Below are positions 8,979 to 62,682 of a stretch of 64,000 bases of DNA, one piece after another. Numbering within the stretch: position 1 is the first letter of the stretch; the number at the start of each line of letters is the position of its first letter. A program made the position numbers and the translations under genes. The notes beneath the pieces were generated by a model that was not told the origin of the DNA, did no database searches, and saw only the letters and a list, made by a program, of their open reading frames with translations. Location: positions 620,001-684,000 of the forward strand of contig JAAVVG010000012.1 in assembly GCA_012976225.1 (NCBI GenBank). Reading direction: 5' to 3'. The DNA comes from Golubevia sp. BC0850. Lineage: Eukaryota > Basidiomycota > Exobasidiomycetes > Golubeviales > Golubeviaceae.

Positions 8979-9985
8979 TGTGGAGATAGATAGTGAGTGT
9001 ATGCCATCGTCAAAGAGATTAGGTGCGAGGAACACTGCCTTCTGCCTGTTGCTTCTTTCCTCTTCGCTGCTCTACTCAGAGACCTGATCTCTGTCCCTCT
9101 GGAGCACCTTGTGCGGTATCTGAGCACATAGATAGTGAATGTTTGCAGCTGAGATCACATGAGAAGAGGTGAAGAACTGCTGAATTGGCTCTTCCATCTG
9201 TCTTCCCTCAGTCACTCTGCTGCTGCTGCTCCACGCAGCATCCTCCCAACCTCTACCTCTTCCGCACGATCTCCTTATCTTTTGAGGTTCGTAATGGAGA
9301 TAATCTTGATCACTTGTACCACTGCCGACACTCACCTGCTGCCATGAGTGATTCGACTGCGGACGACTAGAACTCAAAGAGGAAGAGAGCGAATTGAGAA
9401 GTGGAATTGGACTTGGGTCGATTGGCTTTGAAGTTGTTCCACTCTCCAGTTTAATGATGATGATGAGTTGATCAGTGGAAATTGTTGAGGTTCTGACTGA
9501 GATAATACCTTTTTAAGCAATGTTAGAGGGACCACCAAAGTCAGGATGGGTTGTGGGTGCGCTGTGAAGGAAAGATAGAGTCGTTCCACCCTAACACCTT
9601 AACCTTCTGACCTTTTCTACCCATCAGTCTTCTTTCTCTTTCTTCCTATCATGACAGACTGAAAGCTTTGAATCCAATTACTTCATCCTTCAAAGCTTCG
9701 ACTCATCAAAGACACCTCACGACGAGCGACGTCTCACTTCCGCAGCCATCTTCAAAGCAAAGATCAGCTTAGCAAGTCCTTCTCACTGATTATTTCTACG
9801 TGGACGACAGAACATCCTTGGTATTCATCCAGTAAGCATTGAAGCAGTTCGCTCCTGCTCCCACATCACTCGTTGCTGAGGATGCTGACCCGTTTTGCTT
9901 CCTCGTTCTTGCAGATCATTGCTGTACGAGCTCATCTTTCCCCCTTCTTCCATTCTCTTCTACCAAATCAAGAATCTTCGATTCT
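8979..9985. other. Intergenic; possible 5' leader exon of the eIF4E-binding gene
   Basis: Divergent region between the eIF4E-binding gene (-) and the family A relic (+). On minus at about 9343 the sequence ATGGCAGCAG is followed by GTGAGTG, which could be a leader exon and donor, but I cannot connect it to the next exon. A minus frame at 9377-9072 has no recognisable domain. Nothing else is supportable. Confidence 0.3.
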
Positions 9986-11536
9986 ATTCGTAGTCTAGTC
10001 CGATACTACCATCGCCATCGAACCGGAGGACTCCTCAAGACTTCAATCCATCCTTCCAAACCTCGAAACCTCGTGCCTCCTTGGTCGATCCCGTTCCAAT
10101 CCCTGCTGCTGCAGCGCGCCGTCTCCTCTCCACGGAAGAGACAAACGACGTTCTCCAAGACCTCATCAACGAAGTGATCTTCCTACGAGGCGAGAAAGGC
10201 CAGCATCTCGAGAAGATATCCAACCTAGAACGCCAGGTGGAAACTCTCGAGTCATCAGCTTCCAAGTCGTCCAGCAACTCTGGAACTCAAATCGATCCTT
10301 CAAACCTGGATGTCGAAGGATCTGCTCCTGAATGCAAATACTAACCGGATCAACCCAATGGTCGACGTTCTTCAGCGCTCCTGCGAGCAGCTCCCTTCAG
10401 CCCACCGCCTCAAGACAAATCCATCAACGACTTCCTTCCTGCCGAAGCTCTATCAGCCTCTTTCCAACATCTAGATTCAGTCCAAAAGGTTCTAGTCAGA
10501 AGAGTTTGCAAGCAGTGGCTGGAGGTCGTGGACGGAAGGAAATCTCTCTGGAGGGTGCTAGCTCTTCCGATGCTGAGCTTAGAGTCGGTTTCATCTATCA
10601 TTACTGAATTCGATGAGAAAAGTGGCTCAACTCTAGAGGAGGTCTTAGTCGAGCTCGAAGATCCTGTTGGCCAGCTAGATTTCCATCCGCTCCTTCAAGC
10701 CCTCCAGAATTCAAAAGCTCCGCTTCAAGCTCTCTCGATCACCAAGTCAAGAGGCAAGGGATCTGCCAGAGATCGTTTTGGACATCCTTCCGGAACTTTC
10801 ATGCTTACATGCGTTCACGCTACAGAGATTGAGCTCTATTGGAATGGAAAGAGCCATTCTAAGAATGCTTCCAGCAACAGTCGGTCAACAGGGCTGTCCT
10901 CTTCGAGTTCTCTGTGTTCCTTCAGTCTGCGAGCTTTTCGACGCTCACCCAACTCGCTCCGCAAACCTGTCTTCTCTGCAAGTGAAGCACTTCCAGGCCC
11001 ATTCGTGGTGGAGACAAATACTCGAAGGTCCGTCCAAGACGCTCAAGCATCTTGGAATCAGCGTCTTGGAATCAAGATCTATCCAGCGTCAGAGGAGGTT
11101 CCTGCTCTCCTATTCCCTCTTCGGAGGTCTTGGTACTAGGGGAGGTCAACAGCATCTTTCCGACCTGGATGCTAGTACCCGAGAGCTTGAAGTTGGCTAC
11201 CTTGGAAGGTCACTCTGGGCTGCCATCACTCTCTGGGCTGCGGGTCTTTGATCTGAGTAGCTGGAGAAGGATGGAGTCTAGCTGCCCGACACTACAGGTG
11301 TTACGCTACGACGGAAACCTTTGTCTGTCTCTGGTCATCTCTTTGCTTTCCTAAATGCAAGAAGAGACAACGTCGAAGTTGGACTAGAGGTGGAAGGAAT
11401 CAAAATGCAGCCTCTTAAGACACTCTTCATGTCAACTCATATCTTGACTGTGAAAACCTCAGCTGAGGTGAGAAGGATCGTCGGAGATTTGGTAGACAAG
11501 ATCACAGTCCCACAAGGTTGGGTATTCGAGGTCTAA
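9985..11536 (+). pseudogene. F-box/LRR-like protein, family A copy 1 (frame-broken)
   Basis: N-terminus MVDPVPIPAAAARRLLSTEE (from 10081) leads into a heptad-like segment (LINEVIFLRGEKGQHLEKIS). Downstream in the same frame is a good F-box core near 10430-10555: LPAEALSASFQHLD, then VRRVCKQWLEVVDGRKSLW. LRR-like text follows in another frame (LPELSCLHAFTLQRLSSIGM, LRVLCVPSVCELF, LKHLGISVLE), then another (LRVFDLSSWRRMESSCPTLQ), and the end (11321-11536) returns with VEVGLEVEGIKMQPLKTLFM. A TAA at 10342-10344 lies inside TACTAAC, a perfect branch-point, followed by CAG at 10373-10375, so one interruption may be an intron. The frame change near 10745-10775 has no obvious splice explanation. F-box proteins normally recruit substrates to SCF ubiquitin ligases; here I infer a relic. 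Confidence 0.62.
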
Positions 11537-12285
11537 AAGCTTCTAAACCGTGAGTTTCCCGTCAATCACGCTGCACCTTTCTTCAAAGTAAGCATCTCCT
11601 ATGTCTACACGGCTCGTGTACTGACTGTTAACTTCAAACCAAATTCCTGTCCAACAGTAGCCGAAACCAGATTGCAAGCCCTCTCCCGTCTTCTTTCCGT
11701 GAACTTTCGGTTCACTCGCTGCTTCTGATCAAACGCTCAAGGTTCTACTTCAAAGGGAATCCTCCGTTGTCTTCTATCTTCTGTTTCTTGCTTCAATGAG
11801 TGGATTTGATGCTTCTTGCTGAAGGGCTCAATGTCATCGATTTCGCACATCAACGTCACGCTACCAGCCTAAGCTGCTTGTGCCTCCCCTACAGAAAGCC
11901 AGTTCATCCTTGAAAAGCAAATGTATGCCATCTCACCTCCAAATATTAATTACGAGCTTGCATCTCTTCTTGAGAGAAACGGAAGTTTGACTTGATCGCG
12001 AAACAAAAATTGTGTTCCAGAGTCGACTTTTGTCTTGATGGCGATGAGCGAGAACTATCAGAGTACAATTACAGAAGGCTGTCGACTGTCGTTGAATGAC
12101 AAGACACGAGGTTGAATTACTACACCTTGATCTGCAAATACTTTCAGAGAAGGTGCCAGGGCCCTCTTGTGACAGACCTTGGTGAACGAACAGCGGACGA
12201 AGATTTGCGAGCGAGTATAAAGTCATGTTTCCACCTTCATTCCTTCTTCCTTTCGACACATTCATCTCAAATCCAGATTTTAATT
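11537..12285. other. Intergenic, nothing recognised
   Basis: Between two F-box-like relics. Short open frames only; no domain, RNA or repeat recognised. Confidence 0.35.
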
Positions 12286-12946
12286 ATGTATTCTTCAAAA
12301 GCCTCTCAAATTGCTCCAACTCTCAAACTCAGACAACCTGTTCACCTTGGAGTCTTTGCTGAGATGTGGGTTCGTCACGTCTTACCTCTCTTCTCCTACT
12401 CTCAACTCAAGAACTTCCAACAAGTCAACAAGGTTGCAAGAGATCTAACGATCAATGAATCACTAGCACCAGCTTTATTCCGTTCAGACGTTAATCCTTC
12501 TTTACTTTCAAAGATTAAAACTGTAACTCTTTTAAAGGTTGAATAACATTCTGCTGCTGGTGATTACGTATCATCTCCAATGCATAATGGACCAATTCAT
12601 CCAATTTTCAGTCGCATGCTTTACTCGATGCCAAAAGACTACAAGGATATCTATTTAATGACTCCTACTACTTTTGAGACACTCGATCCTTATTCTACCC
12701 ATGGAATTGAGTCTTTCCCAGCAATCTCTGAGAAGCCACCTACCCAGCCGTCTCAATTTGGAAGATGGAAGTCTATAGTAAAATGTTTGAGATGTTCGGT
12801 GAAAGTGTCGGGGGAAAGCCATCTACTGTAGTAGGAATTGGAGAACCTCTCTTCGGAGGACTTCATAACTCCGTCACTTGCAAGGATGTCATGAAAGCCC
12901 TGGCTGAGAGTTGTAAAATGACTTATAGTGAGTCTACAGGATCCTG
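12286..12946 (+). pseudogene. F-box-like protein, family C (interrupted)
   Basis: Starts MYSSKASQIAPTLKLRQP, then an F-box-like helix set (HVLPLFSYSQLKNFQQVNKV, ARDLTINESLAPALFR). After an in-frame TAA (12544-12546) the same frame continues with NGPIHPIFSRMLYSMPKDYK and DIYLMTPTTFETL, a block I associate with basidiomycete F-box proteins (a histidine-proline start, then a strand and an acidic loop). Near 12765 the frame changes to FEMFGESVGGKPSTVVGIG and VTCKDVMKALAES. It is different from families A and B nearby. No intron border resolves the internal stop. Family assignment is from memory of the sequence pattern and is moderate; the broken state is seen directly. Confidence 0.5.
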
Positions 12947-13687
12947 AATTGAGTCTTCGATTGACCGAATGACCTTTGACGAACTTTCCTCTGTGAGATT
13001 CAGCATCTGACTTCCACCCTCTCATTACTTTCCTGTAGTTGAGACTCATCATCATGCTTTCGAGGGATTGGTTCTTTCAAAAAGGTTCAAGATGTTTCGA
13101 GCTCAAAGATCTTGCTTGGGGATCTTAGATCTTCTCAGAATGAAGAGCCAACAGTGAGTTCAAATCCCAGATTTTGTAGACAGCTATACTTTTGTGGCAT
13201 TTCCTTTGATCTGACACTGACCTACCGAGTTTAAACTTCTTCAAACAATTCTTTCTGTCTCTCAAAGAGCTCTGCTCAAACAGTCGAACTTGAAGATCTC
13301 TTTGCCCAAGCTCCGGTTTGATGTCCCGGTCGCCAAACCCCACACTCCTTTCTCGTTAAATAAAAGCCTTTGAAGAAAACAAAAACATCCATGCTCCGCC
13401 TTTCACAAGCATTAAATCTCGAAATTTTTTGTTCCTTTCCTTCGTTATGAGCTGAAATCATGAAGTAGTTGCATCGAAAGTTGTACGATACGTTGATCGA
13501 GCTTGTCGTGTTCTAGATTGTGTGCGAACTCAAGATGCATCATCCAGAATAGAGCCACCCTCGAAATTCAATGTATGCAAAGTCTTTCTCAATGGGTCCA
13601 GAAAAAGCAAATCCCAAAAAATCAACCCACCCATCGAGACTCGCCTTCCCCTTCCAGCTCCCTATCGTTCTACCCCAGACAATTCCA
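12947..13687. other. Intergenic, nothing recognised
   Basis: Spacer between the family C relic (+) and the 3' end of SEC17 (-). No supported gene, RNA or repeat. Confidence 0.35.
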
Positions 13688-15631
13688 TCAGCTCAAATCC
13701 GGTTCCTCCTGCACTCCCTTCCTAACATTCCTCAACACACCAGCTTGCCAACCCAAAATCTTCTTGGTCCTATCGAATTCTTGAACCAAACCATCTAAAC
13801 CTTCTACATCCCCAGCTTCAGCTGCTTGAAGTAAATTATGAAGGAATCTACCTTCCATAGTAGAAGGGAAAGAAAGATCTTGTTGAGCGTAGAAGGACAT
13901 TGCATTTGTGCATGCTTGGTAGTCCTGAGAAAGAAGGTCAAGTCGGTTGCAGAAAGATAAGAAAGGTGCAGGTAGGGGAGGTGAAGTGAAAGTTAGAGAT
14001 ACTTTTGGAAGTGAAAGATCTGGGAACAAAGAGACAAGCCTCAGAAGCTCAAGGATCTGACTTGAGTCGCTTGGAAAGACTTTTTTGAAGTAAAGAGGGG
14101 AGGGCATATCGACACTCACCGGTAAAGCCAAATAACATAACCCAGCATTCAAATAATAATCCTTCACACTATACTTGGTCAAGTTGGATTCCAAAGACAT
14201 GCTTGCCACTTGTTCCCATCTTTCAATGGCGATTCTATATTGTGAGAGTTCGGTTGCTAATTCTGCTGATGATCTGAAACATCCTGAGGCCGTGCTTTGA
14301 AGTGGAGAAGAAGGGTAAGAGGAGGAGGAGTTAGAAGGGGATCGAATGAGAAGAGGAGAGAGAGGAGGGGGGGGGGGGAAATGGAGGGAACGCAGGTCAA
14401 ATTTAGAGAGGAAAGTCAGAGACTGCTCGAAGGAAGTAAATCAAAGGTCGGGAGATGGAAATCTAGACCTCAAAGGGCTGTTCTATGAAAGGCAGACCTT
14501 TTAAAGACCCAAACCTTCTGCCAATTGTTGAAATTTCCAAATCCACTTCTCTATCCTCTTGGCGATCTCATACGATTCCCAGGTTCTATTCCCAAACTTT
14601 CACTCTGTTGACTTTACCCAATCTGCGACTCTCCATCCCATCTGTCTCTTCCCATCTCCCACCCCTTAATCTCTCCCCCTTCCCTCTGCCACACCCCCAA
14701 CTCTTGATTCTATCAACTCACGCCACCGCCCCTTCCTGCAAATACCAATTTCCAGCCTGAAGATAACATTCCAAAGCCTTTGCTTGATCGTGACAATCGT
14801 TCTTATAAAGTTCAGCTATGGACTTCTCTCGATCTGCAGCTTGTCTGAATCTACCTTTTTCGATTAGGATGGATTTACAGGATTGAAGGGATTGGACTGC
14901 TACTGTGGGTAGGAGAAGAAGATGGATAAGATTCAAGAGGAGATAGAGGAATGGAGGAGAAGGGTAGAGAGAAGAGAGGAGGGGTGGGGAGAGGGGAGAG
15001 ATTAGAGAGGGAGGGGAGGGTCAGTGAAATGGCCGAGAGTGAATCGGGCCACTATAGCATAGCAGGATTTTAGATGCTGATCTGATTGTTGAATCGGCAT
15101 CTACTTTTTTGATGGAATGAGCGCCTTGAGAGACTTGGAGAGCTATGAAGGAGTAGCATGAGGAGCTGATAGTAGACATGATAGCCTCTGGCTTTGCCTC
15201 GCCGTCTTGAACATATTCAGACGACAACTTGAGACTCTCCATCTAGATCCACTGATTGCATTCCCAGGTCATCGCCTTGCCAACTCCTTTCCAGCTGCTT
15301 CCTCAATGCAGCACCGCCCCTCTATCTACCCCTACTCTATCTCTCCTATTCTCTACTCACGTTCTGGTCTGACCATCTTGAAGCATTTACTAGCTTCAAC
15401 ATAAGTGTTAGCAGCGTAATCCAATTCACCTGCCTTGATCTCAGTTTCAGCAGCTCTGATGAAAGCTTTGCCAGCTGGCTCAAATTGATTTGAGATTCTG
15501 AACTTGTTTCCAGCTGCTTTGAAAAGTTCAATGGCTTCTTCTAATTTTGTTGAATTGGATGAGAACCAGCCAGAAGTTGAATTGGCTCTCTTTTCTGCAG
15601 TTTGAAGAAGTTGTTCAGGTGAGGATGACAT
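13688..15631 (-). CDS. SEC17: Alpha-SNAP, SNARE disassembly adaptor
   Basis: Cytosolic adaptor that links SNARE complexes to the NSF/Sec18 ATPase for recycling after membrane fusion. Four exons fit: 15631-15361, 14902-14722, 14294-14120, 13924-13688, 287 residues (family about 290). Exon 1 has AEKRANSTSGWFSSNSTKLE, IELFKAAGNKFR and TYVEASKCFKMVRPE. Across intron 1 the text reads RPELAVQSLQSCKSILIEKG, then GRFRQAADREKSIAELY. Exon 3 has LTKYSVKDYYLNAGLCYLAL and exon 4 EGRFLHNLLQAAEAGDVEGL, ending QEEPDLS. This matches the TPR-like helix order of alpha-SNAP. Splice phases close (GAAC|GTGAGT to CACAG|TAGCAG). Introns 1 (458 nt) and 2 (427 nt) are long for this window. The start is 85 nt from the divergent PHA2 start. 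Confidence 0.92.
14367..14378 (+). repeat. Run of twelve G in SEC17 intron 2
   Basis: A pure G homopolymer inside a purine-rich stretch of intron 2. It is a likely site of length variation or sequencing error but has no coding effect. Confidence 0.85.
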
Positions 15632-15716
15632 GGTCGACGTGAGATTATAGTGGGCAGTGGTGGAGAGGGAGAAGTCATTTCAAGACCGATGATAGATAAC
15701 GCTTCTTGCTCACAAG

Positions 15717-17468
15717 ATGGAGAATCAAAGTGAATACGAAAATGATTCAGATTCTGATCAAGATAAACCAAACAATATTAGAATCGGATTTTTAGGACCT
15801 GAAGGAACTTACTCTCATCAAGTTTCAACCAGTTTCAAACAAGATTTACCAGTTTCAGCTTTCAAATCAGATTTAACCATTTCTCATAAATCTCACTCAA
15901 CAATCACTGGAGCTTTCAATTCAACTGATAGAGAATCTCAGGCTTGTCTGATACCCTTTGAGAATTCAACTTATGGTTTAGTAGGTGAAACGATAGACAA
16001 TCTTGTCAAACTACAAGATGTCACTCGTCAGGATGCAGGTAAGAGCATAAGAGGAGAAGCAAGATTACCTGTAGGTCATTCTTTACTTGTAAATCAGAAG
16101 GACTATCAAAAGTTGAAGGAGTTGGCTAGAGATAGGAGAAGGAGGGAAGGCGAACCTGACGGGCAGATTGAAGATGATCAGAGGGAATTGAATGATGAGG
16201 AATTGAGTGGGATCGGTAGAGTTTATAGTCATGAACAGGCGAGTGTCGTCACATAGTTACTGATTGAACGCTAAGAGACGAGGGGACAAGGATAGAGGGA
16301 AACCCTCTTTCGTTGCCACCACCCTCTCCTTCCATAAAAGGTTCTCCTAACAACATTATTTTCTCCTCAACTTCCATTTCAATCCTTTCTTCTACAGGCT
16401 CTAGGTCAATGCTCAAACTTTCTAACCACCATTTGTCCTCAGACTATCCCTCCAGAAAGAAGAATCAAAACCAATAGTACTGCTTTAGCTTCTCAACTTA
16501 TCTCTGGAAAAACTTTTGAGAACGGAAGTTCGGAGAAAAAAACCAGAGATGGAGATGAAGAACCAAAAGGGAAAAGAAGGGAGGAAGAAGACATCATCTC
16601 TGCTTCAATAGCATCTGAAATTTGTCAAGAGGTTTATGGATTAAAGATTGCTAGGAGGAATATTCAGGATCGAAATGGTGAGGACTTCTTAATGAACTTC
16701 TTGATAAGATGAGGGTTCCTGACGCTTTTTCTTTTTGGAGACTTAGGAAGAAAGGAAAGGTTGAAAGGTCTTTTCCTCCTTTCGAAGCTTGTTCACAAAC
16801 TGACCCCTCTTCTCTTTCCCTTCTCTCTATCCCTCTTCAACTTCAACTATCACTTCTTTAAAGACAATACAACTAGATTCTTCCTAATCTCAAAAAACAA
16901 ACAATGTGACAAATTGACATCCAAAACTCTTCCAGATCCAACTTCAAAACTCAGTGTTCGAGAAGATCGGAAATTTGGATTCAACCTTCGATCGAATCCA
17001 AAAGTCAAAGTTAGAACTTTATTCCTTTTGACTAAAACTAGAGCTTCTATTCAAATGACGCCTGATTCTAAACCTTTGATTCTAAACCTTTTGAATCGGT
17101 TTTTAAAGGTTGTTGCTTTAGATGTAGATTCACCCGAATTGGAGGTTTTGAAAATTGACAGATTGTCTAAGAGGTACTGTCAGTCAGCATTAGAAAATGA
17201 AGGTCAAGGGGAAGGAGAAAAGAAAGAAGCACAGGGAAATGGAAATGGAAAAGAAGAAGAAGAGGACGTTTTCTCAACTCCTTATTTAATCGAAGTTGGA
17301 AGTAGTTTATATCCACCTGAGAATATCAATTGGGAATCTTTGGAAGAAATTAAAAGTAGGATGGAAAGTTTGTTTGATGATTTTATGGAACATGTGGATG
17401 AGAGGAATCAGACAAAGGCTAGATTGGAAAGTGGGGTTTTGAGGAATTTGGGAAGTTGGATTTATTAG
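15717..17468 (+). CDS. PHA2: Prephenate dehydratase (phenylalanine biosynthesis)
   Basis: Converts prephenate to phenylpyruvate, the committed step to phenylalanine. Exons 15717-16238, 16398-16677 and 16864-17468 give 468 residues. The catalytic domain opens with IRIGFLGPEGTYSHQ; substrate region IPFENSTYGLVGETIDNL, then GRVYSHEQ|ALGQCSNFL, then TALASQLIS and the RNIQDRN|DNTTRFFLI block. An ACT-like regulatory domain follows (KVKVRTLFLLTKTRASIQMT, then a strand-helix stretch ending NINWESLEEIKSRMESLFDD), where family members sense phenylalanine. It is longer than the bacterial enzymes because of acidic, lysine-rich inserts (EGEKKEAQGNGNGKEEEE). Intron 1 uses a GC donor. It is divergent from SEC17 with only 85 nt between starts, so the two share a promoter region. 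Confidence 0.92.
16239..16397 (+). other. GC-AG intron in PHA2
   Basis: The protein alignment forces a junction CAG|GCGAGT ... CTACAG|GCTCTA, giving HEQALGQC, a conserved block. No GT donor nearby keeps both sides, so this is a non-canonical GC donor. Confidence 0.75.
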
Positions 17469-17584: not shown

Positions 17585-18520
17585 AAACACAGAGAATTCG
17601 AAGAGGACAGCCCTGTTGACCGACTGTTGCTGGGGGCATTCTTAGAATGGCTCTTTCCATTCCAATAGAGCTCAATCTCTGTAGCGTGAACGCATGTAAG
17701 CATGGAAGTTCCGGAAGGATGTCCAAAACGATCTCTGGCAGATCCCTTGCCTCTTGACTTGGTGATCGAGAGAGCTTGAAGCGGAGCTTTTGAATTCTGG
17801 AGGGCTTGAAGGAGCGGATGGAAATCTAGCTGGCCAACAGGATCTTCGAGCTCGACTAAGACCTCCTCTAGAGTTGAGCCACTTTTCTCATCGAATTCAG
17901 TAATGATAGATGAAACCGACTCTAAGCTCAGCATCGGAAGAGCTAGCACCCTCCAGAGAGATTTCCTTCCGTCCACGACCTCCAGCCACTGCTTGCAAAC
18001 TCTTCTGACTAGAACCTTTTGGACTGAATCTAGATGTTGGAAAGAGGCTGATAGAGCTTCGGCAGGAAGGAAGTCGTTGATGGATTTGTCTTGAGGCGGT
18101 GGGCTGAAGGGAGCTGCTCGCAGGAGCGCTGAAGAACGTCGACCATTGGGTTGATCCGGTTAGTATTTGCATTCAGGAGCAGATCCTTCGACATCCAGGT
18201 TTGAAGGATCGATTTGAGTTCCAGAGTTGCTGGACGACTTGGAAGCTGATGACTCGAGAGTTTCCACCTGGCGTTCTAGGTTGGATATCTTCTCGAGATG
18301 CTGGCCTTTCTCGCCTCGTAGGAAGATCACTTCGTTGATGAGGTCTTGGAGAACGTCGTTTGTCTCTTCCGTGGAGAGGAGACGGCGCGCTGCAGCGGTT
18401 TAGAATTGGAACGGGATCGACCATGGAGGCACGAGGTTTCGAGGTTTGGAAGGATGGATTGAAGTCTTGAGGAGTCCTCCGGTTCGATGGCGACGGTACA
18501 GGTATCGGATCAGACGAAAA
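17585..18520 (-). pseudogene. F-box-like family A copy 2, inverted duplicate of the 10 kb copy
   Basis: Read on minus, this stretch repeats about 9985-10910 nearly base for base. A 91-residue frame (18172-17897) is identical to that at 10332-10607. The DGRKSLWRVLALPMLSLESV frame differs at only a few residues (HPSGTS for HPSGTF; ILRMPPATV for ILRMLPATV). The same TAA within TACTAAC and the same later frame change are present, so the breaks predate the copy. The copy ends near 17585, after GGGCTGTCCTCTTCGA, where sequence diverges and the LRR part is missing. A small local change before the CTGCAGCGCGCC site also distinguishes it. It lies just beyond the PHA2 stop, tail-to-tail with it. Confidence 0.8.
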
Positions 18521-19504
18521 TAATATGTTTTGAATATCCTTGATCTCTAGAGTACAGGGAAAAAAGAAAAAGTGATGAGCACATGGCAAACGTTGGCAAG
18601 AAAGAGAGAGAAGAAGGAACAATCACACGTGAGTCGATTGCCATTTACTGCATGTCGTCTCACCTTTCTTGTCAGAAATGCGACCTTTCCTGAACTTTCA
18701 CAGTAAAGGCTAGAAGCTAGTTCTGATCTAGAGCCTAGGAAGGGGAGGAAGCAGGGTGGATCAGTAAGAGCCGAAGCAGTGAGCAAGAGACAGAGCAGAT
18801 ATGAATCGAGATGAGGATGACGAAAAAACTGGCAACCAGCAATTGATTGTCGATTCGAAAACCTTCAGGGAAGCAAGAGAAGCATATCCCTTCTGCGAGA
18901 CGTCTTTTCCAGAGAAGTTGGGACGCGATTCGAAAGATGTGAGACTCACCTTGATAGCTCGAGAATAAGGCTCGTAATGGGAGACTCTGGTAGCTGTTGA
19001 AATAGTCGAATTTGACGCTGGTAGAGAGAGACAGATCTAGATTTGGCTTGACTGTCTGATTGCAATTGTGATCCTCGAAGACACGTCACTTGATTGCTGT
19101 TGCTTCAAACTTCGGGCAAAATGAAGTTAGGGGTTCAATTCGGTCTAGACTGATTTGTCATCAAAGGTAGAGAGAAGAGGAGAAAAGAGAAGGTGGAAGA
19201 AGAGGTGGGCTGAGGTTAGTCGAAGAAATTCCGAAGTGGAGGGAACGAGGGGAAGACTGAATGACATTGAAGACTGTCTGTTTTACTTGATCTTTCTAGA
19301 CTTACTCTATGGACCTTCAGATGATCTGAAGAAAAGCGATGATGTGAAAGAGAGAGAAGATAAAAAAGGTTGGGATAGAGAATTGAGGCCAGAACAAAAA
19401 ACGCGAAACGCTGAAAAGACGCTTTTTGCTATGAGGTAAATGTTGGAGTCCTTCTTCCTTCTTTCTCTCCTCATTCATCCCTTTCCATTGGATTTCCATA
19501 TAAA
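18521..19504. other. Intergenic, nothing recognised
   Basis: Between the inverted family A copy and the next F-box-like fragment. Frames on minus (18547-18949) and plus (19155-19439) lack domains. Composition is purine-rich around 19160-19240. Confidence 0.35.
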
Positions 19505-19974
19505 GTATGGACTGGAGAACTTACTCGGATAGCTCTGACGAGTACAGCTCCGACAACGAAGCAGCACCAAATACTTCTGCCTCAAGCAGTGCCGATGCGA
19601 CCTCTCAGCTCGGATTACCCTCAAGATGTACTTGTGTCTATTTGGCTTGAATTGGATCTTCTAGATGCTATCTCCAGAATCTCAACTTACCTTCATAGTA
19701 AGTTCTCTCATCTTTTTTTTTTCTCTTGGTGAACAAGGACTCATTTTTGACCTCTCTCTCGCTCTCTCTCTCTTTCCTGGGTCCCCTTCTCTCCTTATGG
19801 GTCCCTTTTTCTTTGAAAGGTTGCAATGTCAAAGTCTTTAAACAGGTCGACGTGCGATTTTCGGATTTGCCACTCGGCGAACTGTTTGCCCACGGGTCGA
19901 ATTTGTTATCTCTTCAACATCTGACCAAGAGCCATCTGACTCGGATTGCCTTCAAAAAGAAGCTGAACTCATGA
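19505..19974 (+). pseudogene. F-box-like fragment upstream of GLY1
   Basis: A start MDWRTYSDSSDEYSSDNEAA leads in one frame to a short Ser-rich stretch. In the next frame the DNA reads YPQDVLVSIWLELDLLDAIS and RISTYLHS, which fits the first two helices of an F-box (P-x-D-V-L-x-x-I-W...LL-x-A-I-S-R). After a possible intron, LRR-like words appear (FSDLPLGELF, LLSLQHLTKSHLTRIAF). The change of frame within the first exon and the lack of a full-length continuation argue for a remnant. Family placement is uncertain. Confidence 0.4.
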
Positions 19975-22649: not shown

Positions 22650-23199
22650 GGGCTGATGGAGAAGAAATGTTTTTCCTTTTCGGTGTGCTGATGAACATAG
22701 AAATGGATCTCCAGTTTCACAGGTTGACGAAAAGTGCGATACTGAATCAAAAGTTTTGTACTACAAACTGCGCTTTGGTCACTTTGCTGAGACGGATTTT
22801 GACAACAGAGACCGATTCAAGAACTGCAATCTGGAGGCCTTCTGAGCTCAATTCATCCTGGACTAAAGAAATGCTTAAATTCCCTTCCAATTCAAGTTGA
22901 CTTGCTCAGACGACTAGGTGAGACGATCGAGATTGCTGAGAGGCAACGACATCTCTTGGCTCCTCTTCCTCGAATGCTCCTACTTCAGAGACCTTCGACT
23001 CGCAGGAAGCAACACCAAAAGGAATCAAAAGAGGAACCGTACCACTAGTCATGAAGCTTCGAGACTCTGTAGTGAGGAAGGAGAGAGTTTTCAATGAAAA
23101 GTGAGCACTCCTGCGCTCCTGATTGCCAGCTGGGATCCATCTCCAGCTTCCTGCTGATGCTGCTGATACCTCGACGCCTCCTTCTGGAGAGAAACAAAT
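22650..23199. other. GLY1 3' region, no supported gene
   Basis: Terminator region of GLY1 and approach to the duplicated unit. Frames on both strands (22667-22900 plus, 23268-22906 minus) lack recognisable features. Confidence 0.35.
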
Positions 23200-30964: not shown

Positions 30965-30967
30965 TAA

Positions 30968-52762: not shown

Positions 52763-52895
52763 ATTGCTTCAAGAGAGATCAATAGAGATAGCAATGCCAT
52801 TGCGATGGGAATAGAAGGGAAGGAATTGAAGTCTTGGTGAGAATAAAAGAAAAGGAAAAGAAGTTGAGAATCCAACTAAGGTCTGAATTGAGTGT
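52763..52895 (+). repeat. 3' flank shared with family B copy 1 (inverted)
   Basis: The stretch with GAGATAGCAATGCCATTGCG and the following AAAAGAAAAGGAAAAGAAGTTGAGAATCCAA is the reverse complement, with small differences, of about 23385-23495. It shows that the duplication includes untranslated sequence beyond the gene. Confidence 0.65.
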
Positions 52896-53054
52896 CAGAA
52901 CCAGTAGTTTTCAATTGTTCCAGTTCCCCCATTGTAGAGATACAGTTCCTTAAGTTATAGCTTCGATATATCTTGGAGCCGTTCAGCCTTCCATTACCAG
53001 CGAGCTACCCTGAACTGAAACCATTCAAATAGATACTGAATTCAGTGTCAATAT
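52896..53054. other. Non-coding spacer inside the duplicated unit
   Basis: Lies between the shared flank and the side ORF; no conserved counterpart recognised by eye at the 23 kb copy. Confidence 0.3.
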
Positions 53055-53467: not shown

Positions 53468-54719
53468 TCAGGTCCCCTCAACCCGAAGTAACTCCCCTTC
53501 TTCGAAACACTTGTGACTCAGTTCCGAAACCCATGAATTGGGAGTGGTTGAGTTCATTGGTCTTGGAGCCGTTGCAACCACTGATCCGTTTCGAAGTGTG
53601 GCACCTTTTAGAAGTTGGGTTACGAAGACTTGAACTGTTTGAGCTCTAGTTTCAATAGGTTTGTTTTGAAAAAGCATGTCTGCAATCCTGTTGCCGTGTT
53701 GAAGTTCTACGTGTTTTATCTTTTCTGGCTCTACAGTGTTGTTTGCCTTTTGGCTCATACATGAAACCTGTCGTTATTCGAGAAAAAAAGGAAGTTCTTT
53801 GGAAAGCACTTACGGGAAAGAAAGAGCTGTCGATATCTAGCGGATCGTCTGACTTACTGCGTAGCTCATCGACCCAGCGACGTTCCAATCCCTGTCTCCT
53901 CGTTTCAAAGTGTTAATTTTGATTGTAGCGGGAGCTACGGTGCTACGAATTGTTCTCCTTCCGTGACACCATGGGAGAAAATCTTTTGTTGTAGGGCCAC
54001 AAGAGGGATCTTTTTCATCGTATCCATGGGTCATCGCTTCGGTTCCAGTCAGAAGGCTCTCGTAAGTCAGTCCAAGATATTCAGGAGAAGGGACATTCCC
54101 TTGGACGAGAACGTCACAAGTCCATCTGGTCATTAAGCCTGAGAATGCATCTTGGACCTCCGTTTGTCTGGGTCCAGTGACAATAGACATCAATGGCGAA
54201 CAATGTTCTCCAGGGCAACAGACTTGATCCACCTTGGTTGAAGCAACTAAATCGTGGAAATTCAGGTTCCCGGAATCTCTTTTGGGAGGTGAAAAAAAGA
54301 GAAAAATCAGAAAGACTATAGGGGCTCAACTTTAAAATCAAAAGGAATGGAGGCTGGATTATATTTACTCACTGTAGATCGTAACCTGAGAAGAACTGGG
54401 TGGCTATATCTCCTACTTGAGGATAAGAAGAAAGCTCATCACTTGCTAGATAGTGAAGAGTTTGTTTTGTAGTCCTTTTAGAAACTCTATCTTGATCCCC
54501 AGTCGCGTTGGAATAACCGCCGACGCTGTATAGCTTCTGAGAAATTGGTTTGCCGTCTTCCAGCATGCAGTTCGCGATTTGAGGGCAAAGCTTGATTTCC
54601 AATGCTGAAGGAGGCGCGAAGGTAGCATTTGGGGCAACTCTCAACTGATCCCAACTAGATTGGGCAAATGGATGACGAGAGGAGGGCAGAGCAACGACGA
54701 GGTTTACTGATGCCAGCAT
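53468..54719 (-). CDS. Secreted cysteine-containing protein, function unknown
   Basis: Three exons (54719-54373, 54278-53858, 53767-53468) give 355 residues with phases that close (CA|GTGAGT to AAAG|AGATTC; GCA|GTAAGT to GACAG|GTTTCA). A short hydrophobic start (MLASVNLVVALPSS) suggests secretion. Landmarks: ALEIKLCPQIANCMLEDGKP, YSVGGYSNATGD, QVCCPGEHCSPLMSIVTGPR, FSGLMTRWTCDVLVQGN, PSCGTT-like PSCGPTTKDFLPWCHG and MSYAVSCMSQK, ending HKCFEEGELLRVEGT. Several paired cysteines and N-glycosylation sites fit an extracellular protein. No known domain recognised; could be a wall or effector-like protein. Upstream 54720-54900 is purine-rich. Confidence 0.75.
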
Positions 54720-55479
54720 TAGAGTGAATTGAATGGTAGAAGACTTAGACGTGCTTGCTATTGAAGAGCTTGAAATTTGAAAAAATATGAGTCCGTTAGG
54801 AAAAGTTTGGATTGAGAGGCTTTTCCAGAAAGCTTTTCTAAGAAGAAGGCAAAGAAGAAGAAGAAGATGAAGAGGTTTTGAAGAATAGAGTGAGGAAAAA
54901 GGAAGCTCGATGGTCTCCTTTTATCTTTTTTCCTCTCTAGCGCGAGACTTCTTTTGAGTCCAGAATCTACGACAACCCACTCAGTAGAGCGCCAACTCGA
55001 TACTCAATAGAACAGCGCCCAAATGGGCCCAAATCGAGAGACTCCGACGCTACCCCACTCAGTAGAGCGACGCCTACTGCTGTACTGTGGGTGGGTGGAG
55101 AGTCTGCTCTCAAACCTCAATCTTAGACCTCAGACTCATAAAATCTTTGGATGGAAGTTATGTAAATCTAGAATGACAGCATGGATAGAGACGAGAAGAC
55201 TCGAATCTCTAAAGCTTCTTCTTCCGATCAAGTTCGACACAAATCACAAGGTCTCAACAAAGGAATATGAATGATCAGAAATGGTACAACTGCTCTGAGA
55301 TAGACCTTTTCTTACATAGCCTTTGTGCCATTGTTCTTTTTCTCTCTCAAAGCGTAGATACGTCCACGTAAGGCATCCCACAGCCTCGACGACTCACTTC
55401 TCTCTGTACATCACGACTTCCCTTCGTTTGTTGATGCTGTTCTTGAACTTGCCCCTCAAGAAGTTGAATCATCTGGAAA
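54720..55479. other. Intergenic, with a short repeated motif
   Basis: Upstream of the secreted-protein gene. The phrase CACTCAGTAGAGCG occurs twice (54979-54992 and 55055-55068) about 76 nt apart, with related CAATAGAACAGCGCCCAAATGGGCCCAAAT text between. No gene recognised before the family B fragment. Confidence 0.4.
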
Positions 55480-55899
55480 AGAAAGGGATCGATGTTGGAG
55501 AAGGAAAAGGGGATGAAGTGTTCCTACGCCAACTTTTAAAATCAAGAAACGATCCAAATCTCAAAACAGTAGCCGTCCCGACGAGCTGCTGGGACTTTCG
55601 AAACAAAGAAACTGTCTCTTCAAGGAACAAGGAACTTTGGCGGGAGGCAAGAAAAACTTCAGTAGAGCTGGAGAGGTTTACCAGTGGAAGAGTGTTGTCG
55701 CAACTTTTGAAAGCTAGAGAAATTCATGAGTATACACTGTCAAGAAAGTGACTGAAAATCGATGAGCTGTCTAAATCGACTGTACCCCTCGCTGATAGGA
55801 TCGGTTCCGCCCTTTGTTATTCCGGAATCAGCTGGTGACAAATTCATAGGAGAAAGCTGCCTCACCAATAATGTGCTTTTCTCTCCTTTTGAACTCTAG
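55480..55899 (+). pseudogene. C-terminal fragment of family B gene, copy 4
   Basis: Reads GEGKGDEVFLRQLLKSRNDP, NLKTVAVPTSCWDFRNKETV, SSRNKELW and LERFTSGRVLSQLLKAREIH, then, after a possible intron, the terminal exon GDKFIGESCLTNNVLFSPFE with stop at 55897-55899. This matches the last third of copies 1-3. No F-box start, leader motif or upstream LRR part precedes it. The Trp of SCWD, lost in copy 3, is kept here. Confidence 0.6.
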
Positions 55900-56141: not shown

Positions 56142-56810
56142 TCAACTTGAACCCCTGTCACATCGACACAAGTCCTCCAACCATTTCCCACTTTGATTCC
56201 TCAATCCAGACAAAGCAGAGCCAGTGTTCATGGTCTTGACTTTGAGTCTCTTCTCTCCTATTTCCAAACTTGAGCAGACAGAGATAGCTGAAATGAGAGT
56301 TTCCAGATGTCTCTCATCTACTTTCAGAGTGACTTCCCACTCTCTGGAGGGTTCGGTCGCTTGAACGAAGAGAACGTCGACTCCGAAAGCTCCCCCTACT
56401 AGGCCATGCAGCTCGATCAAGGAATCGGAGAGAAAAGTCGAGATTGAAAGCTCTGGAGGGGAAAAGCCTTTTGGAAGAGAGGTGGGAGATGATCTGAAAG
56501 GAGATGGGAAACTTGGCAGATAAGCTTCGGAGAAGGCCTTTCTCTTCAGGACTGCGGAGATGAATCGAAGGAATGACACTCACAAGTTCAACAAAACGTA
56601 CTTGAAACCAAAGTTTGAGATGTTTCGACGTTGAATTTCAGATTTGCCTGGACTTGGTTGAGAGAAGGTAGTTGGAATCGTAGGATACTTGGAGGTTGGC
56701 GAATCGATCCCGTTCTGGCTTCGATCTTCAGTCGAAAGAAATCGAGGAAAGAGAATGGAACAAAACAAGTTAGGAGGTGCAATTACTAGATCGAAGCCTT
56801 GACTAAGCTA
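56142..56810 (-). CDS. Probable RNase P/MRP protein subunit, Rpp14/Pop5-like
   Basis: The main exon (about 56560-56142) reads FLSDSLIELHGLVGGAFGVD, VLFVQATEPSREWEVTLKVD, ERHLETLISAISVCSSLEIG and KRLKVKTMNTGSALSGLRNQ. This order (helix, G-x-x-G-G-a-x-x-x-D-V-L, strand, L-x-x-L-x-x-A, strand) fits the Rpp14/Pop5 fold of RNase P and RNase MRP. An upstream exon (to about 56590) includes RRNISNFGFKYVLLNL, similar to the family's first strand, with a GTGAGT donor. I could not close the phase between the two exons nor find an ATG in frame, so the start is unresolved; an acceptor-like CTTGTAG at about 56806 suggests a further exon. If real, it sits directly downstream of tRNase Z, another tRNA 5'/3' processing enzyme. 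Confidence 0.5.
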
Positions 56811-56859
56811 CAAGCGATAGACCGAAGAGGTAGGAATCAAATGTAGACGGACATCTAGC

Positions 56860-59800
56860 TCAAAGAGACTCACTAGCCATCGCTTCAACTACCTTCATCT
56901 CAGTATCCTTCGACCCATTCTTTCCTCCTTTCTTCTCGCGTACGGTTTCGGTCTTTCCTTTTCTACTCCCATCCCCGCTCTCCCCACCAGCCACCGCAGC
57001 TTCTTCATCAGCATCGAAGAGTTTCTCCATAGCTTTTCTATACTTTTCCATCTTCCAGAATGAAGTCAGAGGTAGTGACATTAAATCAAAAGCCAAAGCA
57101 ATGATCGGTGGATCTCTTGCATCTCCATTAGCTTCTTTCATCTCAACGTCCTTTCCTCCCATTTCACTCAACCTAGCCAGCTTAGGATATCTCTGACTGA
57201 AATGAGTTAGCAAGCAATATTTGGCCTTACTCTCTTTAGCAACTTGAATAGCGCCACCGAAAGTTGAGTGTCCTTTCTTATCCGCCATTTCAGGTTGATC
57301 ATCTTCCAGAGTTGCTTCATGAATGAGAAGAGTTACGTTTTGAGATGCTTCGATTAGGCTCTGGCACGGTCGAGTGTCTCCAGAATAAGCAATCGACCAA
57401 TCGGATTTGGAGGTTGAAATTGAAGTTGAAGCTGCTGAATGATGGAAGACTAGTCCATAACAATGAGCAGCTCTATGATCTACTAAACAAGTTGAGATGG
57501 AATCTAGATTCATAGATTGTAATAGGTTTTGATAATTCTCTTTGGTGTAGTCTCTTGCTAGAGTTCTCACTCTGTTATATGGCTTGCAGTGGCTGTCTTG
57601 AGAGTTAGAAGTTGAGCTTGAATCTGAAGATTTTGAGCCTGCTACTCCTGACTTGAAATCCAACCATTCATTCTCAATCAGGATAACCCCATTTTCATTC
57701 ACTTTGATTCGTTTCTCAACTTCACCGAAATCGGAATCGATGTCTTTCACTTTCTCCTCCAATCCCAAATCTTGAATTCTATTCAACTCCCTCAAGTAAT
57801 TCCTAGTGAAAGAGTTACTCAGAAGATAAAGCGATCGATCGACTTGATTTCCTGGAGTTTCCACTACTCGCTTTCTCTCCTTCAGAATCCTAGCTACTCC
57901 TAAATGATGATCTGCATGGATATGAGAAACGAAGACGATCTTCAAGTCCTTTAGGATTTGATCCGTTTTCTCAAAGCCGAACTTTCTGCATAGCTGTCCA
58001 TAAGTTGACTCTCCTACGTCTAATAGCAAATAACCATCTTGAGGAGTTTCAATCAAAGTAGCAGATACGTTTCTGTACTTTGAAGGATGAGAAGATCCGG
58101 TTCCAAGAGGATGAACAACCACTCCTGAACCTTCTTGATCTTCTACACGGGAAGCTTCTTCCACTTCTATCTCTTCTTTGACCTTCTTCATCATTTCTAA
58201 AAATTCTTTCCATCCTTTTTCTCTAGCTGCCTGTAATCGAAGTTTCGTAGTTGGGTCTTCAAAGTCTTCCTTTGAATCCACCTTCGTCTTCCCTTTATCC
58301 TTTCTTTTCCCTTTATCCTTCTTGCCGTTCTTTTCCAACTTTTCATCAGTTTTTAATCCCCAATCTTGCTTCAATAATGAGGCTCTACCTTTAAATCTGG
58401 CTAAATCTTCAATCTCTTTACTTCCAATCTCGTTCATGAAATCCGGAGATTCAGATTCGAATCTCTCAATCTTGACTCCCACTTCATCTTCGTCTTCTGG
58501 AGTTCCCAATCGTATCATCAGATCCACTCCAGCTGCTTTGAAGTTCTCAACCCCTAACCGATTTCTAAAGTTCTTGAGTCCAAGGTCTTCGTCCATCGAG
58601 GTTTGAGAAGTTAAAGTATACGGCGGCACTTGAAAGATCTGAGGATCTAATTTGGATAACCGAAGTAGAGATAGAGAGGAAGATGGGAAGGACAGAGTGT
58701 TTGGACTGAAAGAGATGTCGGTTAGAATGTGTTGAGTTTGAGGTCTGAGAGTTGAGTTAGAGGTGGGATCGATTCCAGAAAGATTGACAATGAAGTCTTG
58801 ATATTTGAGATCCCGTAGAACTTCAGGAGGAGCTTTATGGATGATGACTTGGGGAGTTCCGAGAGATTTGAGTTTGGAAAGATTGGTTGGTGCGAGAAGT
58901 GAAAGTAGATGAGAGAGGGTTGGAACGTTGAGGTGGATCGTGATCTGTTAGGTTGAGAGGAAGGAGATGGAAAGGAGATCAAAAGCAATACGAGAGAAGA
59001 GATGTCCAAACAAAGGGAAGGAGTGTCAGTTCATGTTCACTTCTTGAGACGACGTCGAACATCCACCTCATATCAGAACTCACAAATCCAGGTCTAGGTT
59101 TCCCAACAACCTGTTCCGACAGAATCTCCACCTCTACCAATTCTTCCTCTTCCATTTCGTTAGTCATTTCCTTTGCTTGAACCTCTCCTTTCTTAGCCTG
59201 CCCATCCTTCTTCTCTTTCCCACCTCCTCCTTTCGTCACCCATTTCTTTCTTTCCTCAAAGCTCATCCCCTCCCAATTCGAATCCACCGGTCTCTTAATC
59301 CTAACATTTTCACCCTTAGTCAGTTTCGTGAAATTAGGTCCCGGACTGACACCCATCGAAACTGCAGTTTCAAAGTCGAACTTCCCTCGCTGAGTATGGG
59401 ATTGAAGGATAAAGCATAGAGAAGATTGAGGGGAAGTGTTATCAGGAAGAGGTAAAGAATGATTAACCCAAGCTGGAGTAATGGTTCTATGAGTTCTAGG
59501 CAGTGAAGATGGATCGTCTAATCTGAAAGCTGGAGTTGAAGTTTTCTCTGATTTGCCTTTCCCTTTGGATTTGATAGAGTTTGAGTCTTGGGAAGTATTC
59601 GTCTGTCGACTCTTGTCATTGAACATATCTTCAACTACAGCTTTGATCCAAGTTTTAGAAGATATAGTTCCAGTTAGAGAAGAAGGTCTGAAATTTGGGG
59701 AATTGTATGGAATTGTTGAAAGAGGTGGTGATTTTTCCAATATAACCTGAGCTTTAGGCGAGCTATTGACAGAGCAGGAAGAGGAAGAAGGAGATAACTT

Positions 59801-60430
59801 TCTACGTTTTGAAGACGTAGAAGAAGAGGAAGATTTGGTGATGGGAGAATCGAGGTCCATTCCAGCAACCTCTTCCTTTCTCCTGTCATCCGAATGCAGT
59901 TCAATGAAGCTAATATTCAAATTACTATCCTTGTAGAACGGGAGCAGTTTCTCATCCTCCCCTCCTTCTTCCAACTCCTGCATTGCCACCTTCATAGAAT
60001 CTCTTTTGGTAAAACCTCTCATACTTGCCATGAGGTAAGTTATCCCCTTTGGACCATACATTTCAACCTCCTTTCTATCTGAATCAGCCAAGGTCATTAA
60101 TAGACCAGGTAAACCCATGGAACCATTCAAATCTAAGCTATCTAAGAAGACACCCGAAATTTTTGAAGCTGAAGCTTTCCTTTGAGAAGTAGCTCTAGTT
60201 GAACCTTCTGGGACTGAGAAAAGATACCGATTTGAATCTAAAGTGTAGAGAATTGAAGGTGAAGTTGAATCGGTTGAAGGTGAAAGTAGAAATCTAAGAG
60301 TTGACGACATTCTTGATGATGCTGATGGAAGGCAAGAAGTTGAAGAGAATCGAAAGGAGGAAGAGAAAGAGAATGAGATCCTCGGGTGGTTGATTTCCCT
60401 TGAAAGAATCCTGGCTGCTACTGAATTCAA
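56860..60430 (-). CDS. TRZ1: Long-form tRNase Z (tRNA 3'-end endonuclease)
   Basis: Removes 3' trailers from nuclear and mitochondrial tRNA precursors. Two exons (60430-59084, 58944-56860; GGATTT|GTGAGT to ACAG|ATCACG) give 1143 residues, longer than typical ELAC2 (about 830) through acidic, Lys- and Ser-rich inserts. N-terminal half-domain: LRFLLSPSTD, YLFSVPEGSTRATSQRK, SGVFLDSLDLNGSMGLPGLL and MYGPKG. C-terminal catalytic half: HPLGTGSSHPSKYRNVSATL, LLDVGESTYGQLCRKFG, VFVSHIHADHHLGVARIL (zinc motif HxHxDH), VDHRAAHCYGLVF, YSGDTRPCQSLIEASQNVTL, HEATLEDDQ, KGHSTFGGAIQVA and LTHFSQRYPKL. The first Met opens a basic, Ser-rich presequence (SREINHPRISFSFSSSFRFS); Met41 (MSSTLRFLL) could start a nuclear form, implying dual targeting. 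Confidence 0.93.
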
Positions 60431-60807: not shown

Positions 60808-61017
60808 TTTGAAGGTCGATTTTGACTGACAGATTGGAAGAAGTCGGCTTCAAGTCCCTCTTATTCGAGGATCATTGATTCCTTATCCGTCTCCTCGGGG
60901 CCTCGTCTCAGAATTTCAGCAGGTGAGTGATGCTGACTGATCGAAAGCGACTCTAGCAAAGAACCAGAACTGACAGTGACTTCCTTCCTCCGGCAGTCGC
61001 TATCTCTCGCGCTCATC

Positions 61018-62682
61018 ATGGAAGACTTGAAGAAGGAGCCAGCAAGCTTCAGTACTCTACCAGAAGACGGCATTCCTTCGGTGGTCGAAGTCACAAGGAG
61101 TTGGGCTGAGAGGGAAGAAGTACGGTTGGGATGGGAAGAGCGACGGAACGAAGGAAGATGGTGAGTATCGAGTGGCATGCATCTCCCCTTCTCAAACAAC
61201 AGTTCCAGAGACTTTGGACTCTTCTCAATTGCCTCGACCTCAAGATTGACCTATTCAAAATGGTATCCTTCCCTCTTGAAGAAGGTCACTATAAGCGCCT
61301 GGACTCCGCCTTCGATCTAATATCTACTTCAAAGACAGCCTGAGTTTAATCGATACGTCAAATATGTAAACGTCAAAGGGACTCGGAAAGATGATTTTGA
61401 AGAGAAGTCTGCTTCTCTCCTGAGGTTGATAAAGGACCTCCAAGCCGCAGCTGAAAAAAAGCTCGCAGCCAGTGAAGCTATACGGGCAGCCCACACACAG
61501 GTTCTCAACAAGTGTCACAACATAGAAATGATAATATGAAGAAGTGGATACTACTTATTCTCTCTAGTGGATGAGCCACTACTGGGAAAGAGGGTCGTTC
61601 CACTTCCCTTTCTCACTCAATCTCTGACAAGGATTTTTTAGGAGGCTCCGCCGACATTCAACACAACATAACCGCTAACACAACATAACCGCTCAAAATG
61701 CAATCTGGATCCTAATTTTCTGCCGTCATTTAGTCAAAGCATCTCTCAGTTTAAACATCACCCTTCACTCTTTCAATTTCATTCTGGAGTATTCAGAGGC
61801 CTTCAAGCGCCTCTCTAAAATCAAGCAGCTTGCTATCAGGCCATATTTTATCTGGGATGTCCCTTTTTCCAGCAATGGAAGATGGGTTTGGAAAGAGTAA
61901 GAAAGAGTCAGACTTGGTGGGAAGCAATACGGAGACGACAGCGGTTTATCACTTCCTTCGGGTTACCCAATCTCTCGACTCCTTGGAAGTATTAGGCACA
62001 ATGGGATACACAACTTCTGGAGAGTCTTCGCATGCAACTATATCACCAGACTTTCTTTCAAGTCTATCCAGCTCTTCTAATTCATTCAAGCATCTTCGTC
62101 TCCTCCATATGGTTCCCTCGAAGACGAGCACCGTGGATCTCTCAATTCTTAGGTCGCTTAAGATCCTGAGTCTGGATCGGTTCCTAATTCAAAGTTTCAT
62201 GGAAGAGAGACTAGGTCACTTGCCTTGTGTCGAGCTTTTCCAACTACCATTCTACTCTTTCATTGAATCAGCACCCTCGGATGGAGATCTAAGGAGGAGA
62301 AGATACTTTCGATGATTCTTTCAACCAGTCTCTTGACGAGCTCTTTCTCTTGCCGAATCTGAAAGAGCTCGTCATCCCATCTAGGCCAATCGACAAGGAT
62401 AGCGTAGAAACGAACTTTTCTCGTCACCTCAAGCTTTGGAAAGAATCGAGAGAAGTGTTGAGAGACAATGAGAGGATCAAAAGCGGGAATGTAAAGCTTC
62501 GGCTTTTAGAAGTAGGAGACTTTGGTGAGTCACGCAGGAAACAACTTGTTAGCTGACTCGCAAGTGTTTTCATCCATCTAGAATCTGATCTCGAACCTTT
62601 CCCCTTCTCCTTAGTTGGCGATGAATCGAGAGGAGAGAACTGCCTTTCGGCCTTTGATTGGCTCTCTCCCGAACCTCAGTAA
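61018..62682 (+). pseudogene. Divergent F-box-like family B member, copy 5
   Basis: Start MEDLKKEPASFSTLPEDGIP, then SVVEVTRSWAEREEVRLGWE, matching LPQEVAEQVVEVIRSWTNVE in the other copies. Exon 1 ends ATG|GTGAGT (about 61160). Exon 2 has RDFGLFSIASTSRLTYSKWY, PSLLKKVTIS, corresponding to RDSALLALSMTSRLGYRAFY, CLLRSVTL. A stop lies near 61320, and the same frame continues as VKYVNVKGTRKDDFEEKSAS and LLRLIKDLQAAAEKKLAASE. LRR-like text follows (LRVTQSLDSLEVLGTMGY, NSFKHLRLLHM, LRSLKILSLDRFL), a frame change near 62310, LPNLKELVIPSRPIDKDSVE and the terminal exon (62615-62682) GDESRGENCLSAFDWLSPEP. It lacks the shared leader motif. It is the most diverged copy and has the fewest breaks after 2-3 interruptions. 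Confidence 0.55.

Follow-up and report, generated by a model that had tools for sequence, protein, structure and literature searches.

Broken copies of two gene families form a pseudogene cluster between housekeeping genes

What becomes of duplicated genes in the intergenic spaces of a gene-dense eukaryotic contig, and how can dead copies be told from living genes which merely look broken? The question is raised by a 64,000-nucleotide (nt) stretch of contig JAAVVG010000012.1 (positions 620,001 to 684,000; hereafter the window, with an overall GC content of 44.5%), in which an earlier reading of the letters alone (the original prediction) had reported eleven loci threaded between housekeeping genes: ten taken as F-box-like and grouped into three families, and one unassigned fragment. 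Nine broken or partial copies, belonging to two repeated families named A and B, are a real, well-marked pseudogene cluster, the outcome of ordinary gene-family turnover. Very probably they are intergenic duplicates, made at the DNA level, of once-working genes which died independently, with gene conversion between inverted dead copies.

To assess family membership, each of the 1044 stop-to-stop open reading frames (ORFs) of at least 35 amino acids in the window was compared with all the others, and repeats of at least 40 nt were listed. The two repeated families take nine of the eleven reported loci: family A at 10, 17.6, 30.7 and 37 kb (A10, A17, A30 and A37) and family B at 23.6, 25.4, 51, 55.5 and 61 kb (B1 to B5). 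All five places claimed for family B hold one homologous family according to the all-against-all comparison, the repeats and tblastn, and family A was recovered at all four of its claimed places by different routes. The loci at 10 and 17.6 kb form a near-identical inverted repeat, while the locus at 37 kb is tied to the F-box ORF of A10 by tblastn (1.35e-8) and has a Pfam F-box of its own. When the C-terminal ORF of A10 (11282-11533) was compared with the 1044 ORFs, 30659-30964 came first (score 69) and 37773-38174 second (64), the next match scoring 41, and none of 2000 shuffles reached the score of either ORF. Compared directly, the 30.7-kb and 37-kb loci are weakly alike (score 45, reached by 3 of 2000 shuffles), no more so than unrelated ORFs. 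The two other loci were not confirmed. The ORF pieces of the reported family C at 12.3 kb (12286-12828, plus strand) matched nothing in Pfam when 11250-13650 was scanned in all six frames, and the same holds for the fragment at 19.5 kb, its longest ORF (19415-19729, plus strand) being the one scanned; neither locus has a partner in the all-against-all comparison or in the comparison with the C-terminal ORF of A10. When viral contigs were scanned, B1 and A10 each matched four stretches by pattern, none of them a confirmed relative.

The anatomy of family B indicates how its copies arose. A gene of about 500 codons is laid out as exon 1, intron 1, a long exon 2, intron 2 and a short exon 3. B1 (23601-25306, minus strand) has exon 1 at 25306-25179, a putative intron at 25178-25089 and exon 2 at 25088-23781, followed by a putative intron 2 from 23780; in B2 (25395-27094, plus strand) the corresponding parts lie at 25395-25531, 25532-25615 and 25616-26934, with intron 2 from 26935, and in B3 (51054-52762, plus strand) at 51054-51181, 51182-51281 and 51282-52598, with intron 2 from 52599. 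The donor of intron 1 is GTGAGT in these three copies, and that of intron 2 is GTGAGT in the same three and in the diverged B5; this hexamer is the donor in 16 of the 41 introns used to train the gene finder applied to the neighbouring genes, a usage which, along with the genes present, would suit a basidiomycete-like fungus. B4 (55320-55899, plus strand, start approximate) is a 3' piece only, in which ATGAGT at 55726 takes the place of the intron-2 donor found in the other four copies. B5 (61018-62670, plus strand, upper end approximate) is the most diverged copy and consists of open pieces in different frames, with a TAA at 61318; its intron-2 donor lies at the same column as in the others and its intron 1 was set by eye. 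Exon 3 ends at a TAG common to B2 (27092-27094), B3 (52760-52762) and B4 (55897-55899), where B1 has TGG. The intron loss expected of retrocopies was not found in B1, B2 and B3, which retain their intron boundaries, and the flank beyond the stop codon is common to B1 and B3 to at least 23199 and 53242. Kept introns and a common downstream flank point to duplication at the DNA level, and the B copies are, on this evidence, DNA duplications and not retrocopies.

B1 and B2 are arranged head to head around a palindrome centred within 25196-25505 (arms 25196-25335 and 25366-25505, 78%, with 30 nt between the innermost arms), with which five further inverted repeat pairs are nearly co-centred. Their divergent start codons, about 90 nt apart (25306-25395), lie inside this palindrome, which could once have been a shared two-way promoter. 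The homology of B3 to both B1 and B2 starts near the palindrome centre (51009 in B3), and about 153 nt downstream of B3 (52891-53043) are missing downstream of B1, by insertion or deletion.

Were these copies ever genes? The ratio of nonsynonymous to synonymous substitution rates (dN/dS) was computed for each pair over 429 or 430 codons, in the family frame and in the two other frames. In the family frame it is 0.34 for B1-B2, 0.35 for B2-B3 and 0.57 for B1-B3, whereas the other frames give 0.97 to 1.05. In comparisons with B5, where dS is saturated, the computable values are 0.34 and 0.29 in the family frame and 0.71 to 1.69 in the others. Stop codons in the family frame number none in B1, one in B2 and two in B3, and in the other two frames 14 to 21. 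Such conservation of codons indicates that, for a large part of its past, the B lineage evolved under selection on the protein: the ancestors of family B were working genes. The higher dN/dS of B1-B3, the youngest pair, would fit a recent loss of constraint.

This frame is interrupted differently in each copy. B1 has lost 10 nt at one place and 1 nt at another; B2 has gained 2 nt, has an in-frame TAG at 25943 and has lost single nucleotides at two places; and B3 has an in-frame TAA at 51616, an in-frame TAG at 52464 and likewise two 1-nt deletions. No break in B1, B2 or B3 falls at a common column, so the deaths look independent. The breaks claimed in the original prediction are confirmed in these three copies, and its picture of decaying gene families is borne out by copy-specific stops and indels in a frame once under purifying selection. 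With frame disruption and past purifying selection combined, B1, B2 and B3 read as pseudogenes.

Three of the four family A loci contain an F-box at or above the Pfam cut-offs (24.3 bits for PF12937 and 20.5 bits for PF00646). A10 (9967-11533, plus strand), an apparent F-box pseudogene, has its F-box at 10435-10560 (PF12937, 1.2e-5, 25.4 bits), with PF00646 under its cut-off at 18.1 bits. A17 (17586-18544, minus strand), a 3'-truncated inverted copy of A10, also passes by PF12937 only (7.9e-6, 26.0 bits; PF00646 at 19.7 bits), while A37 (36902-38174, plus strand) passes by both PF00646 (5.3e-7, 29.7 bits) and PF12937 (27.9 bits). A30 (30659-30964, plus strand) corresponds to the opposite end of the gene from the F-box, hence to its C-terminal part only, and nothing in Pfam was matched by the three plus-strand frames of 30600-32040. 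By its domain matches family A is an F-box family, and its live proteins would have served SCF ubiquitin ligases as substrate adaptors. The coding text of A10 shifts frame among the ORFs 10345-11136, 10679-11248 and 11282-11533, and A37 has an in-frame TGA at 37136, followed by frame changes. The likely start codon of the family (10081-10083 and 18422-18424) is ATG in A17 and TTG in A10.

The F-box, which had been attributed to all three families, is shown for A alone: family B has none by sequence, and the family C pieces match nothing in Pfam. No F-box was matched by the four spliced N-termini of family B in Pfam at E up to 1, a result against an F-box label for this family; hhalign gave no alignment of the B N-terminus with family A (probability 0.5 of 100), and the B profile found no F-box protein in the PDB up to E 10. 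The seven PDB sequences retrieved with the exon-2 profile (four of LGR5, two of LRRC8D and one of APL1, all of them leucine-rich repeat (LRR) proteins) are weak matches, at E 0.55 to 9.6, and no LRR family of Pfam was matched by five B pieces at E up to 0.1; family B may be LRR-like. An AlphaFold model of the B1 ORF has a pLDDT (predicted local distance difference test) of 45.5, too poor to inform. The Foldseek list obtained with it, led by triosephosphate isomerases (TIM barrels) and with none at E<=0.001, was taken as noise.

One pair of copies has a more particular history. In the A10/A17 alignment of 963 columns, 27 of the 31 differing columns fall in the first 141 nt (9967-10107) and the other four in the last 120 nt (10799-10918), with none in the 691 nt between them (10108-10798 on the plus strand, paired with 17706-18396 on the minus strand); in the repeat listing the final 811 nt round to 100% identity. 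Small indels are present in A17 about 20 nt beyond its ATG (10101-10107 in A10 numbering), at the edge of this identical core. When the poorly aligned left edge before 10012 was removed and clustered changes were merged, leaving five events, an event-free stretch of the length of the core arose in 850 of 200000 random placements; with ten events it arose in none of 200000. Ectopic gene conversion between inverted duplicates is a known process, which the pair resembles in its perfect core, diverged edges and opposite orientation at a distance of 6.7 kb, and from which it differs in that both copies look dead and A17 is truncated. Plain ageing of a duplicate would look otherwise, and the core is best read as having been copied between two older inverted dead copies by ectopic gene conversion. 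The cluster of the two families thus holds one clear trace of copying between dead copies.

Did the copies arise all at once? A single recent duplication burst, now decaying, had been proposed, and would be in keeping with the perfect core of A10/A17 and with the 80% identity of B1 and B3 in exon 2. Corrected dS, however, is 0.35 for B1-B3, 0.86 for both B1-B2 and B2-B3, and saturated with B5, a range which indicates that turnover was drawn out, and the edges of A10/A17 are far more diverged than their core, so that the core reflects conversion and not age. A burst as one event is therefore unlikely, and what the copies appear to record is drawn-out birth and death.

Could the genes be alive, with unusual splicing, recoding or editing responsible for their broken look? 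The B intron positions look real, the coding signal of B1, B2 and B3 exceeds that of shuffled sequence, and part of family A may be spliced: a branch-point-like TACTAAC at 10339-10345 contains the in-frame TAA at 10342, the sole in-frame stop between the A10 ORF 9994-10341 and the F-box ORF, which suggests that an intron may lie near this position, and a real intron there is possible. Against this, a search for spliced models, covering ten neighbours and seven A and B loci (A10, A17, B1, B2, B3, B5 and A37, with B4 and A30 outside) with 20 shuffles per locus, yielded no full-length model for the copies: the best scores were 20.4 to 125.4 in the neighbours and 0 to 17.8 in the seven loci, with 10.7 at 12.3 kb and 10.3 for A10 with wider bounds. 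The weightier argument is that the breaks in exon 2 are copy-specific, while the aligned B copies stay continuous and codon-conserved across them; mutual gaps among B1, B2 and B3 do not exceed 10 nt, and longer gaps are common to all three and due to B4 or B5. Since conserved codons span the breaks, an intron removing a break would take out conserved coding sequence too, and splicing would not plausibly rescue B1, B2 or B3. The splicing alternative of the original prediction is thus disfavoured for family B, and living genes are altogether a very unlikely explanation of the cluster.

A further reading would turn the dead copies into a silent archive, in which inverted copies are kept alike by ongoing conversion and donate sequence to expressed members elsewhere, and in which, by way of the perfect inverted pair at 10 and 17.6 kb on either side of it, the SEC17-PHA2 segment can flip in the population. 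Little credence is given to this reading; if true, dead copies would matter to the evolution of ubiquitin-ligase specificity.

That the breaks are sequencing or assembly errors is more improbable still. Single-base deletions do make up five of the breaks in B1 to B3, but the large open frames nearby (1294, 590, 578 and 443 codons) are unbroken, dN/dS is raised in the youngest pair (0.57), and stop codons, a deletion of 10 nt and an altered splice donor are atypical of indel errors; error is a less likely source of the three stops, the 10-nt deletion, the 2-nt insertion and the donor change than of the 1-nt deletions. Least credible of all is an unrelated transposon-encoded protein as the shared text, which the dispersal of the copies in both orientations might suggest: no transposase, reverse transcriptase or other transposon domain was found in the A and B pieces scanned with Pfam (short terminal repeats were not specifically sought), the intron positions and codon conservation of family B are as in host genes, and family A has an F-box. 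Repeat-induced point mutation was also considered and set aside, as no CpG depletion was seen in the eight A and B loci measured (observed/expected ratio 0.55-0.82; window 0.62). The TpA/ApT ratio is 0.44-0.74 in these loci, 0.60 in the window and 0.50-0.69 in nine neighbour stretches.

Several points weigh against reading the loci as independently dying duplicates. For family A, frame changes served as the yardstick for breaks in place of a close intact relative, and the in-frame TAA of A10 (10342) may be intronic. The introns of family B were inferred from conserved boundaries, the five 1-nt deletions in B1 to B3 are possible sequence errors, and the nine stops counted in the aligned frame of B5 are inexact at its 44 to 46% DNA identity to B1-B3 in exon 2. 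Part of the training set of the spliced-model scorer consisted of the very neighbours which it favours, and the score of B1 (17.8) lies near those of dihydroorotate dehydrogenase (20.4) and SEC17 (21.1, for which just 513 nt were scored). B1, B2, B3, B5 and the 12.3-kb locus beat their own shuffled maxima, a residual coding signal; A10, A17 and A37 do not, and one A10 shuffle reached 22.8. In the B copies the TpA/ApT ratio, at 0.67 to 0.74, slightly exceeds that of the window. Lastly, and weakly, nine sites (alignment columns 448-489) join B1 and B2 against the general pattern (P = 150/20000 shuffles), a patch which is no more than suggestive of conversion; the best segment of B2-B3 is unremarkable (5973/20000 shuffles).

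The surrounding genes were modelled with a self-trained spliced gene finder (strict version) or as open frames, and Pfam was run on pieces. They comprise a proteasome alpha subunit, SEC17, PHA2, a GLY1-like lyase, a ROK1-like helicase and a NAA40-like acetyltransferase, and also a dihydroorotate dehydrogenase, a GFA enzyme, an aspartyl protease, a Sas10/Utp3 protein, a DHHC palmitoyltransferase and the long tRNase Z TRZ1. SEC17 (13688-15631, minus strand) was modelled as two pieces matching SNAP (profile positions 211-282 and 2-91 of 282), and TRZ1 (56803-60310, minus strand) is based on a Pfam tRNase Z match and a spliced model. Spliced models were likewise obtained for PHA2, a prephenate dehydratase (15630-17468, plus strand; PDT 2e-14 on the N-terminal part), for the GLY1-like beta-eliminating lyase (20144-22733, plus strand; Beta_elim_lyase 1.1e-40 on one exon), whose 3' end is provisional and overruns the likely end into intergenic DNA, for the ROK1-like DEAD-box helicase (27606-30576, minus strand; DEAD 2.9e-34 on one exon) and for the NAA40-like GNAT acetyltransferase (35817-36867, minus strand; Acetyltransf_1 9.1e-12). 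The C-terminal piece of PHA2 and one NAA40 exon taken alone gave no confident Pfam match. Pfam pieces support the SNAP, PDT, beta-eliminating lyase, DEAD helicase, GNAT and tRNase Z assignments of the original prediction; since Pfam gives the domain only, the exact names ROK1, GLY1 and NAA40 are that prediction's own and go beyond Pfam.

Some other genes or frames were also observed in the window. Downstream of A37 lies the dihydroorotate dehydrogenase gene (39150-40209, start provisional; Pfam DHO_dh 8.6e-12 on 39715-40209), which was outside the list of the original prediction. The open frame of 1294 codons (5094-8978) is rich in Gln, Gly and Pro and has no Pfam match at E 0.001, and two minus-strand ORFs of 117 and 116 amino acids, which lie between B3 and B4 (53837-54719), have none at E 0.01.

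Taken as a sequence of events, independent death of once-working duplicates would have run as follows. The intergenic spaces would hold duplicates of family A, with its F-box, and of family B, with three exons and a weak LRR resemblance. The ancestors of family B would have been copied time and again, in either orientation and at different ages, introns being kept in B1, B2 and B3. The copies would then have died one by one, each by its own stops, indels, truncation or splice-site loss, and inverted dead copies would afterwards have exchanged sequence by ectopic gene conversion, as in A10/A17 and, more weakly, in the B1/B2 patch.

The nearest known counterpart is found in plants, whose lineage-specific FBX genes are described as evolving by birth and death, with numerous pseudogenes and relaxed purifying selection (Hua et al. 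2011, PMC3030570). Birth and death, abundant pseudogenes and relaxed purifying selection are shared with the present cluster, which differs in lying on a fungus-like contig, in its compact two-family composition, in its one clear conversion tract and in the restriction of the F-box to one family. For basidiomycetes, Table 3 of PMC4469406 gives PF00646 counts of 7 in M. lychnidis-dioicae, 18 in S. roseus, 12 in R. glutinis, 12 in M. osmundae, 9 in M. larici-populina and 11 in P. graminis, with extremes of 3 in M. globosa and 43 in Agaricomycetes. The general kind of gene and its lineage-dependent numbers are alike, while that table tallies annotated domains and not pseudogenes. In a poplar-rust paper (PMC3335510) the F-box passages deal with genes of plants and with the targeting of these by pathogens. 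Among the literature matches listed, which consist of titles and abstract starts with most subscription journals outside, there is no fungal pseudogene cluster of a comparable kind; they treat instead F-box families of plants and animals, bacteria, ribosomal DNA and, in a few cases, fungal genomes.

Annotation pipelines are likely to render loci of this kind as false short genes. The A10/A17 core offers a measurable instance of gene conversion between apparently dead genes. In the cluster as a whole, birth and death of the F-box type can be watched while under way, in a genome that is compact and probably fungal, with copies of several ages lying next to one another.

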